From positions 1 through 64,000 of the forward strand of contig NZ_CP009919.1 of assembly GCF_000832985.1 (NCBI RefSeq): 64,000 bases of DNA. Direction: 5' to 3'. Position numbers and translations under genes: made by a program. Shown here in pieces: positions 20,998 through 22,021 of the stretch. Origin of the DNA: Priestia megaterium NBRC 15308 = ATCC 14581. Lineage in GTDB: Bacteria; Bacillota; Bacilli; Bacillales; Bacillaceae_H. Below the pieces are notes generated by a model. It was not told the origin of the DNA. It saw only the letters and a list, made by a program, of their open reading frames with translations, and ran no database searches. Numbering within the stretch: the stretch's first letter is position 1; every line of letters begins with the position of its first letter.

Positions 20998-21159
20998 ATG
21001 TTAAAGCATGATGGGGTAAGGCATGCCATGGATCTTCATGAAACTACTAATAAGCCTGTAAAGGAAATTTGTAAAATCACAAATATAAGTGAAGCTACTT
21101 TTTATCGCCGGTGAAAAGAATATCAGAATATAAAAAATGCGGTGACTCCGGAAGAATAA
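20998..21159 (+). pseudogene. HTH protein remnant (resolvase/transposase-type helix-turn-helix) with in-frame stop
   Basis: From ATG 20998 (AGGAAAG upstream) the frame reads MDLHETTNKPVKEICKITN... ATFYRR, then a TGA at 21112, then KEYQNIKNAVTPEE to a stop at 21157. The pattern VKEICKITNISEATFYRR is a helix-turn-helix as found at the end of serine recombinases or in small HTH proteins. The stop falls in the recognition helix, so the product is probably inactive unless the stop is read through. Confidence 0.55.
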
Positions 21160-21325
21160 TAGAAAGAATTTTATTTTTTACTACATAAACAGCTATCTAT
21201 AGTCGATTAAAGTAAAGAGGATTAACTATTTAGTTGTAATATAGTGGGTGGTCACTATAAAATAGGGTTTTAAGCTTAAAACAAACGGTAAATGATAAAA
21301 AGGACTTATGTAAGGAGGTACTATT

Positions 21326-21469
21326 ATGAAAAAGTCTATAGCAGTTCTGCCAGAAGAGTGGATGAAGCTAGTTAAAGATGCAATGAATTCAAATGTGAGT
21401 AAAGAAGAATTTAAACAGTTTCTAGAAGCAAAATCTCAAGATAACACGATAGCAAAAAACATTAGATAG
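21326..21469 (+). CDS. SinI-family antirepressor, small protein A
   Basis: A 47-aa frame with AAGGAGGT 6 bases before the ATG. The core PEEWMKLVKDAMNSNVSKEE followed by FKQFLEAK matches the SinI dimerisation/antirepressor domain (helix, glycine/asparagine turn, helix). SinI-type proteins bind a SinR-like repressor and relieve repression of biofilm and related genes. No SinR is encoded in the window, so the target would be elsewhere. The stop codon lies inside the terminator stem. It converges on a second SinI-like gene 30 bp away. Confidence 0.8.
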   Translation: MKKSIAVLPEEWMKLVKDAMNSNVSKEEFKQFLEAKSQDNTIAKNIR

Positions 21470-21493
21470 CGTGTCTATCTAATGTTTTTTGTT
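21458..21493 (+). terminator. Terminator after SinI-like gene A
   Basis: AACATTAGATAG (21458-21469) pairs perfectly with CTATCTAATGTT (21475-21486), followed by a T-run. The 5' stem overlaps the end of the coding sequence. Confidence 0.85.
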
Positions 21494-21497
21494 ATCG

Positions 21498-21632
21498 CTA
21501 GGTTTGTGTATTATCTAAAAATGCTTTTACTTCTTTAACCGATAACCCTACTTCCTTAGCCTCTTGGATAAGTCTAATCCATTCTTGGTCTAAATGTGAC
21601 GTTATTACTTCTTTTTTACTGTCCATAAACAT
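21498..21632 (-). CDS. SinI-family antirepressor, small protein B, behind a c-di-GMP riboswitch
   Basis: A 44-aa frame on the minus strand with GGAGG 5 bases upstream of ATG 21632. The core LDQEWIRLIQEAKEVGLSVK followed by EVKAFLDN is a very good match to the SinI domain (classical SinI: LDQEWVELMVEAKEANISPEE). It should sequester a SinR-family repressor. Its leader carries a cyclic-di-GMP-I aptamer (21648-21733), and its Shine-Dalgarno can be trapped by an upstream CCTCC, so expression is likely set by the second messenger. The neighbouring convergent SinI-like gene A lacks such a leader. Confidence 0.85.
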   Translation of the reverse strand: MFMDSKKEVITSHLDQEWIRLIQEAKEVGLSVKEVKAFLDNTQT

Positions 21633-21647
21633 AAATTCCTCCAGATT

Positions 21648-21733
21648 TTCAGGAGGCTCAGCTGTCATAGTCAATTGACTTTAGACCTGTAGCTTTGCGT
21701 CCTAGCTTTTCAACTAGTTTGCCTTTATCTGAA
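21648..21733 (-). ncRNA. Cyclic-di-GMP-I (GEMM-I) riboswitch
   Basis: Read on the minus strand, the leader contains the GEMM-I core in order: GGCAAAC (21723-21717), a P2 stem closed by a GAAA tetraloop (CTAGTT-GAAA-AGCTAG, 21717-21702), GACGCAAAGC (21701-21692), then ACAGGTCTAAAG and TATGACAGCTGAG, the second helix with its tetraloop-receptor side. A P1 of TTCAG (21733-21729) with CTGAA (21652-21648) closes it. Just after, CCTCC (21656-21652) can pair with the GGAGG ribosome site (21642-21638). P1 and this anti-Shine-Dalgarno hairpin overlap, which would give a translational ON switch; that direction is inferred. Confidence 0.85.
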
Positions 21734-21742
21734 TGTGTAAAT

Positions 21743-22021
21743 TTATATAAATATTACTACATAATGGATGTTGAAGTATGTCGAAATAAGTATTCTTATA
21801 ATTATTTTCTGAATTAAAAAAATACTTCCAACTTCAAAAGTAATGCTGATAGTTATCAGCTGGGAAGAGATGTAAACCAAGCGTACAATAAGGCCGAGTA
21901 TTTTTAATACGTCTGGATTGTTTTCAAGATTAAATAGACGCTTTATCGTTTGTTTTTTTCCGTCTAAAAAGGTGTACCTTTTTGGATTATTGTATTGTCG
22001 ACAAATAGATATGTTCTTCAT
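21743..22021 (-). CDS. Doubtful hypothetical ORF upstream of the riboswitch
   Basis: An open frame of 92 codons. The C-terminal half is hydrophobic (two possible membrane segments), the N-terminal part is basic. There is no ribosome binding site and it starts directly behind a strong minus-strand terminator, so translation is unlikely. The riboswitch promoter probably lies within its 3' end. Listed for completeness only. Confidence 0.2.
   Translation of the reverse strand: MKNISICRQYNNPKRYTFLDGKKQTIKRLFNLENNPDVLKILGLIVRLVYISSQLITISITFEVGSIFLIQKIIIRILISTYFNIHYVVIFI

Follow-up and report, generated by a model that had tools for sequence, protein, structure and literature searches.

A c-di-GMP-I riboswitch aptamer before a plasmid SinI-type antirepressor gene of Priestia megaterium, and its recurrence beside sinR in many genera

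In the Bacillus subtilis model, c-di-GMP and the SinI/SinR pair are treated as separate inputs. The locus considered here, in which a GEMM-I riboswitch stands before the gene of a small SinI-family protein (sinI1), raises the question of whether the second messenger might set the dose of an antirepressor directly, and whether such a connection belongs to one plasmid or to the Bacillales more widely. The window, by which is meant the whole stretch of 64,000 nucleotides that was analysed, is plasmid DNA of this soil bacterium, and lies on contig 5 (74,772 bases) of a 7-contig genome; plasmid unnamed2 of P. megaterium ATCC 14581 (NZ_CP035096.1, 74,777 bp) shows 100% identity to it over the 901 bases compared. 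A preliminary description of the locus had placed it on a mobile replicon, of which the plasmid part holds and the mobility does not, since the window's plasmid is typed non-mobilizable; a sister plasmid of 301 kb, which carries two more copies of the riboswitch, is typed mobilizable.

The aptamer, the sinI1 gene and its convergent partner

The assignment of the element to the c-di-GMP-I class, first proposed from its core motifs, is borne out by the covariance model: the GEMM-I core elements named in the preliminary description are present both in the sequence and in the alignment to RF01051, which extends over the full length of the model (1-87 of 87, E 3e-14), and no other family reaches its gathering level in an Rfam scan of the window. 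The aptamer also directly precedes a SinI-family gene, as had been described, with a gap of 16 nt (Table 1); the assignment to the minus strand and the second SinI-domain gene, convergent with the first, go beyond that description. Model positions 11 and 83 are occupied in the window aptamer by G and C, and we take these positions to correspond to the ligand-contacting G20 and C92 of Vc2. The same bases are found at position 11 in 91 and at position 83 in 90 of 94 sinI leaders, the exceptions at position 11 being two A and one C, and the window aptamer would be expected to bind c-di-GMP. c-di-GMP-I variants with A at ligand-contacting position 11 can prefer cGAMP, and A replaces G at this position in loci L120, L142 and L036. 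The sinI-linked aptamers of loci L058 and L059 are 152-153 nt in size, with a long insertion.

Table 1. Features of the riboswitch-sinI1 region, in coordinates of the window.
Feature	Position	Strand	Basis
Convergent gene, 47 aa, WP_080743158.1, SinR C-terminal-domain-like	21326..21469	plus	PF08671 47.3 bits
23-nt inverted repeat at the 3' ends of both convergent genes	21447..21497		arms 96% complementary, 5 nt apart
sinI1, SinI-type antirepressor, 44 aa	21498..21632	minus	Pfam SinI PF08671 47.6 bits, cutoff 31.4
Anti-SD hairpin, CCUCC (21656-21652) : GGAGG Shine-Dalgarno (21642-21638)	21638..21656	minus	MFE of free leader
P1 stem, UUCAG (21733-21729) : CUGAA (21652-21648)	21648..21733	minus	sequence, folding, covariation over 94 leaders
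c-di-GMP-I (GEMM-I) riboswitch aptamer	21649..21733	minus	RF01051, 80.6 bits, gathering 35
Proposed sigma-A promoter, TTCAAC (21775-21770), 16 nt, TATTTA (21753-21748)	21748..21775	minus	by eye
Spo0A-box-like tandem, TGTCGAA (21779-21785, perfect) and TGTTGAA (21769-21775, one mismatch)	21769..21785		sequence

The RefSeq start of sinI1, at 21626, gives a protein of 42 aa (WP_115648279.1) with the product name "anti-repressor SinI family protein". Its closest relatives among PDB structures are SinI (5tmx and chain B of 1b0n, E 3e-4), followed by SinR (chain A of 1b0n, E 3e-3). Because its score against the NCBIfam SinI equivalog NF046031, 30.0 bits, falls below the curated cutoff of 80 bits, the gene is classed as SinI type on its profile scores rather than as the B. 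subtilis SinI ortholog. The distinction between SinI proteins and SinR tails, both of which match PF08671, was drawn with two profiles, one made from 78 of 80 riboswitch-linked SinI proteins and the other from 40 of 48 SinR/XRE C-terminal domains, 8 that were SlrR-like or odd having been removed by hand. SinI1 scores 55.7 bits with the SinI profile and 26.7 with the SinR-tail profile, and all 7 of the plasmid sinI1 proteins tested favour the SinI profile, by 21-33 bits.

The gene that converges on sinI1 carries the same product name, scores 27.9 bits against NF046031 (cutoff 80), and has no match to any HTH family in the family scan, so that the N-terminal HTH of SinR is missing. It scores 47.8 bits with the SinR-tail profile and 23.6 with the SinI profile, and the convergent partners on plasmids behave alike, 9 of the 9 tested favouring the SinR-tail profile by 13-36 bits. 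Since the SinR-tail profile is preferred, the convergent gene, though annotated as SinI, is by these scores a free-standing SinR tail without the DNA-binding head, for which the term headless SinR is used below. The plasmid pair therefore mirrors the chromosomal riboswitch-sinI/sinR layout; in chromosomal relatives the position of the headless SinR is often held by a whole sinR. The inverted repeat shared by the two 3' ends is probably a two-way terminator. Further free-standing SinR-tail genes are found elsewhere in P. megaterium (G000:C6:3925152 and G000:C7:271658), as well as in two further genomes from the order (G021:C1:3117508 and G035:C3:484581).

The partner of SinI1 in the cell is most naturally sought in SinR. 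A different partner, for example an SlrR-like protein or another SinI-domain regulator of the host, is the strongest of the alternatives considered here and nonetheless an unlikely one: the host genome does have two full sinR-type genes among its 14 SinI-domain matches, and SinI1 reaches 33.8 bits with the end part of the SlrR model, slightly more than with the SinI equivalog, both values being far under cutoff, but the profile test places SinI1 clearly with SinI and many of its chromosomal relatives adjoin sinR.

Folding of the leader and the direction of the switch

The coupling of aptamer and gene is predicted to reside in a short strand at the 3' end of the aptamer. In the free leader this strand, CCUCC, pairs with the Shine-Dalgarno sequence, and P1 together with the base of P3 competes for it, such that the formation of P1 and that of the anti-SD hairpin are mutually exclusive in silico. 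The folding energy models contain no ligand. With the aptamer state imposed as a constraint, the unpaired probability of the Shine-Dalgarno sequence in the window leader rises from 0.09 when the leader is free to 0.86 when the aptamer and P1 are forced, at a cost of 4.8 kcal/mol. The fold z-score of the window leader is only -1.82. Shuffling of the linker makes the effect scarcely smaller (0.06 to 0.74), because CCUCC sits in the end of the aptamer, and the window leader by itself is therefore a poor test of whether the platform is designed.

A broader comparison was made with 94 leaders from many genera, comprising 79 of the first 80 loci of the pattern scan described in the next section (without L154, which starts inside the aptamer) and 15 of 24 earlier leaders, the other 9 being near-identical, long-insert or awkward; scan loci L164-L202 lie outside this set, and start codons and ribosome sites were picked by script. 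On forcing the aptamer, the mean unpaired probability of the Shine-Dalgarno sequence increases from 0.39 to 0.72, and the mean change of 0.32 compares with 0.155 when the linkers are shuffled (Wilcoxon p 2e-8, with relatedness ignored). Accessibility goes up by more than 0.1 in 68 of the 94, goes down in 8 and stays within 0.1 in 18, the 26 leaders of the latter two classes being without an ON change. A P1 of at least 3 bp, counted from position 5-84, is formed in 54 leaders, among which access rises in 49 and falls in 4, and P1 is shorter than this in the remaining 40. Both competing helices show covariation across the 94 leaders, in permutation tests that ignore relatedness: 3.29 of 5 pairs for P1 against 3.00 permuted (sd 0.06, maximum of 2000 permutations 3.20), with pair 3-86 being C-G in 46 leaders and U-A in 15, and 7.90 for the anti-SD stem against 6.98 permuted (sd 0.15, maximum of 200 permutations 7.38). 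Among plasmid copies, that of strain KF18 has P1 as UUAAG:CUUAA where the window has UUCAG:CUGAA, and P1 mismatches occur in L203, L207 and L209.

A transcriptional platform was set aside, a scan of 21200-21950 having found nothing terminator-like downstream of the aptamer, although the same scan did not flag the shared inverted repeat either. These folding results make it likely that the leader is a translational ON switch. The direct setting of the antirepressor dose by c-di-GMP that the preliminary description had put forward is thus well supported in silico, because the aptamer and the SinI-family gene are real and the predicted expression platform of the leader couples them.

The reverse polarity, in which c-di-GMP would lower the amount of SinI1, through decay of the transcript or through a downstream structure outside the model, and would thereby strengthen SinR, is improbable. 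The 8 leaders that become less accessible and the 18 that hardly change agree with it, and OFF c-di-GMP riboswitches do exist, mcpA carrying an "off" one according to passages of PMC7793685; against it stand the large increase in the window leader, the upward change in most of the others and, with the reservation just given, the terminator scan, while the ON sign agrees with the c-di-GMP and biofilm data in the same passages of PMC7793685.

A second input to the ON switch may lie upstream of the riboswitch, where two Spo0A-box-like sites 10 bp apart are found at the likely promoter; the consensus for Spo0A~P is given as TGNCGAA in the passages of PMC7643835 available. The proposed sigma-A promoter overlaps the inner of the two boxes and predicts that the RNA begins near 21741, immediately ahead of the aptamer; it is not among the 3 sites returned by a promoter scan for which 3.1 are expected. 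Perfect matches to the consensus, on either strand and within 150 nt upstream, occur in 29 of the 92 leaders (out of the 94) used for this count, against 3.7 in first-order Markov shuffles (sd 1.9, maximum 10 of 200), and 15 of the 92 have in addition a second box at a distance of 10 bp, with no more than 2 mismatches; the remaining 63 have no perfect box. The tandem box at the candidate promoter suggests an AND gate of Spo0A and c-di-GMP on SinI1: if the proposed promoter is right, SinI1 would therefore require Spo0A~P and c-di-GMP together.

Distribution on chromosomes and plasmids

The host genome contains five RF01051 matches, namely the one in the window, two on the 301-kb plasmid, each with a convergent gene of the SinR-tail type, and two on the chromosome. 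One chromosomal match stands in the order sinR - riboswitch - sinI, divergent from a row of acyltransferase, Wzz, AAA_31 (ATPase) and sugar-transferase genes resembling an exopolysaccharide operon. The canonical sinI-sinR pair of the host (C6:4346112-4346701) has no Rfam match within the surrounding 5 kb (L079). In the genus, RF01051 is present in all 10 genomes examined and directly precedes a SinI gene in 7 of them (G000-G004, G007 and G009), with no such arrangement in G005, G006 and G008; in the order it is present in at least 265 of 299 genomes, with 1-14 matches each among the matches listed.

The frequency of the pairing was estimated from a complete listing of PF08671 for an even sample of 49 genomes across the order, of which 31 have a match. 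Short frames of up to 96 aa number 49 outside the host genome, in 29 genomes, and all were run through Rfam: 26 of the 49, in 22 of the 29 genomes, have a riboswitch 42-74 nt ahead of the SinI domain and in the same orientation (20 RF01051 and 6 of the RF03167 subtype). An earlier count had found one upstream of 9 of 15 SinI genes among the matches listed. Since an RF01051 element is estimated to fall by chance in the 75 nt ahead of any one gene only about once in 10,000 cases, these counts indicate that the pairing is not due to chance. Sorting of the same 49 genes by profile gives 47 of the SinI type, 26 with and 21 without the riboswitch, and 2 of the SinR-tail type, neither of which has one.

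A scan of genome_contigs (84,980 species) for the riboswitch core followed by a SinI gene returned at least 119 loci, and at least 39 genus names appear in their titles among the matches listed; most are Bacillaceae, and Paenibacillus, Gorillibacterium, Alicyclobacillus and Sporosarcina lie outside this majority. The aptamer is confirmed in 119 of the 119 listed loci (cut by the locus end in L154) by our own covariance model, which was built from 20 aptamers, some of the same species, and Rfam was positive in 16 of 16 odd-looking or distant loci picked for re-checking, the remaining 103 being confirmed by our own model alone. An XRE/SinR-type neighbour is present in 72 of the 119 (46 of the first 80 and 26 of the other 39). 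In the first 80, the XRE-type gene is convergent in 22, downstream in the same direction in 19 and upstream divergent in 5 (4 of these also having a convergent one), with 2 loci in which it is further off, 25 without one and 7 without one at the locus edge; for the other 39, the corresponding numbers are 12 convergent, 12 downstream, 2 upstream divergent, 1 further off, 10 none and 2 none at the edge. Two of the 22 convergent genes, in L098 and L139, have no evident SinR tail, and the figure of 72 therefore counts XRE-type neighbours. Locus L102 (JAGGQZ010000017.1), titled Chryseobacterium sp. ISL-80, is a riboswitch-sinI-sinR locus of Bacillus type and is probably mislabelled. At L238 (G032:C16:29500-32700) two SinI genes stand in tandem, each with its own RF01051 (66.1 and 65.8 bits).

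The plasmid setting named in the preliminary description is thus real without being peculiar to plasmids, chromosomal copies being common across the order, and a plasmid-specific arrangement is refuted by the chromosomal loci of the pattern scan together with the count of short SinI genes. Among 72,556 plasmid records, the 251-base riboswitch-sinI stretch matches 23, all from Priestia, with 80% coverage or more in 18 of these, and two additional weak matches outside Priestia cover only part of the aptamer; relatives of the SinI1 protein are found in 32 plasmid records, again all from Priestia (E up to 0.01). A phage origin was also set aside: a search of 50,697 phage records at E 0.1 gave no match to SinI1, and no viral contig contained the riboswitch-sinI pattern.

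Of 15 plasmid regions compared, 10 (L203-L210, L212 and L213) have the place of the riboswitch, sinI1 and the convergent gene; in L211 the end of sinI1 differs and no convergent partner is annotated, and L214-L217 have a sinI without a riboswitch. Rfam scores the aptamer at 72-84 bits in L203, L205, L207 and L209-L212 and at 58.3 bits in L204, where it is degraded; those of L206 and L208 were found by our own covariance model only, and L213 yields no aptamer with that model, though sinI1 and the convergent gene are present. An aptamer of at least 70 bits is thus kept in 9 of the 11 divergent copies L203-L213 (7 by Rfam and 2 by our own model). Pooled pN/pS is 0.45 for sinI1 (11 copies) and 0.43 for the convergent gene (10 copies), in both cases from pairs that are not independent, and these ratios indicate purifying selection on both genes among the copies compared. 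A resolvase tail remnant lies beside the module at 20998-21114 (HTH_7 23.6 bits, just under the cutoff of 23.8), at a place that is occupied by a complete recombinase gene in the copies of the 301-kb plasmid. That the module is a decaying passenger, a chromosomal riboswitch-sinI captured by a mobile element and now without function, has little probability: the resolvase remnant, the lost and degraded aptamers of L213 and L204 and the altered gene end of L211 speak for it, and the pN/pS values, the retention of the aptamer in most divergent copies and the presence of two more copies on the sister plasmid speak against it.

The plasmid module also keeps the company of genes for life-style regulators, which is the ground for proposing that the plasmids may adjust the development of their host. 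A gene of the AbrB/MazE/SpoVT family adjoins it in L206, L207, L208, L210 and L211 and lies about 1 kb away in L203; Spo0E-type phosphatase genes are near it in L204 and L208, and Sda in L204. On the plasmid of the window a Spo0E-type gene lies at a great distance from the module (record 56664), SinR is not annotated, and the two small genes are the only SinI-domain matches. Sigma-70- and EAL-type genes are also found near the module in L203-L211.

Proposed mechanism and relation to known systems

Taken together, the reading that we consider probable is that of a translational ON switch which sets the dose of plasmid SinI1, so as to titrate chromosomal SinR, with transcription probably gated by Spo0A and with the headless SinR possibly setting a threshold. 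When c-di-GMP is absent, pairing of CCUCC with GGAGG would allow little SinI1 to be made. Binding of c-di-GMP would fold the aptamer, P1 and the base of P3 would take the CCUCC strand, and the ribosome site would be freed for translation of SinI1. Bound at its tail by this SinI1, chromosomal SinR would release the matrix genes that it represses, and if transcription depends on Spo0A as suggested above, both Spo0A~P and c-di-GMP would be needed for this to occur. The headless SinR could bind either SinI1 or SinR, and in this way would set the threshold.

The riboswitch class and the protein family are both known, and their pairing has already been mentioned once. In Bacillus methanolicus MGA3, as in the window, a c-di-GMP riboswitch is predicted in the 5'-UTR of sinI, reported as a row of Table 4, "(c-di-GMP)-sinI", and one sentence in PMC4342826; within the open PubMed Central literature, the scope of the comparison, this was the only c-di-GMP riboswitch on sinI found. 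The available passages of PMC4342826 concern one gene of one species and contain no platform, polarity, distribution, test or headless SinR partner, and the present work adds the spread of the arrangement, the way in which the switch is predicted to operate, its plasmid version and the headless SinR. Passages of PMC7793685 cite as unpublished a microarray in which sinI is up in B. thuringiensis at high c-di-GMP. In B. subtilis, according to the text seen of PMC7643835, SinI antagonises SinR and the promoter of the sinI-sinR operon is activated by Spo0A~P; for the window, antagonism of SinR by SinI1 and a Spo0A-linked promoter are both proposed. The RF01051 search has no match in any control genome, while B. 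subtilis does match SinI, and B. subtilis is therefore without a c-di-GMP-I input at the Sin point.

Two other systems approach the proposed arrangement from different sides. The Bc2 riboswitch upstream of cbpA/cap in the B. cereus group has the same aptamer class, the same ON sign and an output related to surface and biofilm, but it is described as switching on the transcription of an adhesin gene, whereas the window has a predicted translational design acting on an antirepressor (PMC7423583, in the portions available). In Clostridioides difficile, Sin regulators and c-di-GMP meet in the control of biofilm, as proposed here, but according to the excerpts seen of PMC6143707 and PMC7643835 the riboswitches of that organism are on surface and flagellar genes and not on sinI, and its "SinI" is a SinR-like protein.

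A more tentative and wider proposal, which we regard as possible without favouring it, is that the Sin system is normally wired through riboswitch control of SinI by c-di-GMP in much of the Bacillales, with B. subtilis as an exception through loss or original absence of this control, and that Priestia plasmids carry a portable tuner, gated by c-di-GMP and Spo0A and buffered by the headless SinR, which biases the choice of the host between matrix, motility and sporulation. If many relatives do feed c-di-GMP into the translation of SinI, the textbook circuit of B. subtilis would become a special case, and the route from c-di-GMP to matrix genes in Bacilli would become testable with reporters. 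The switch together with the headless SinR would then constitute a plasmid that tunes a life-style decision of its host by stoichiometry.

The remaining chromosomal aptamer of the host (G000:C6:3214145-3214229) precedes a family 2 glycosyltransferase gene (L037:7620-9122), which is adjoined by a heparinase-like gene and by genes for two GGDEF-EAL proteins. The leader of this glycosyltransferase gene can form CCUGA:UCAGG adjoining the ribosome site, in a layout similar to that of the sinI1 leader.
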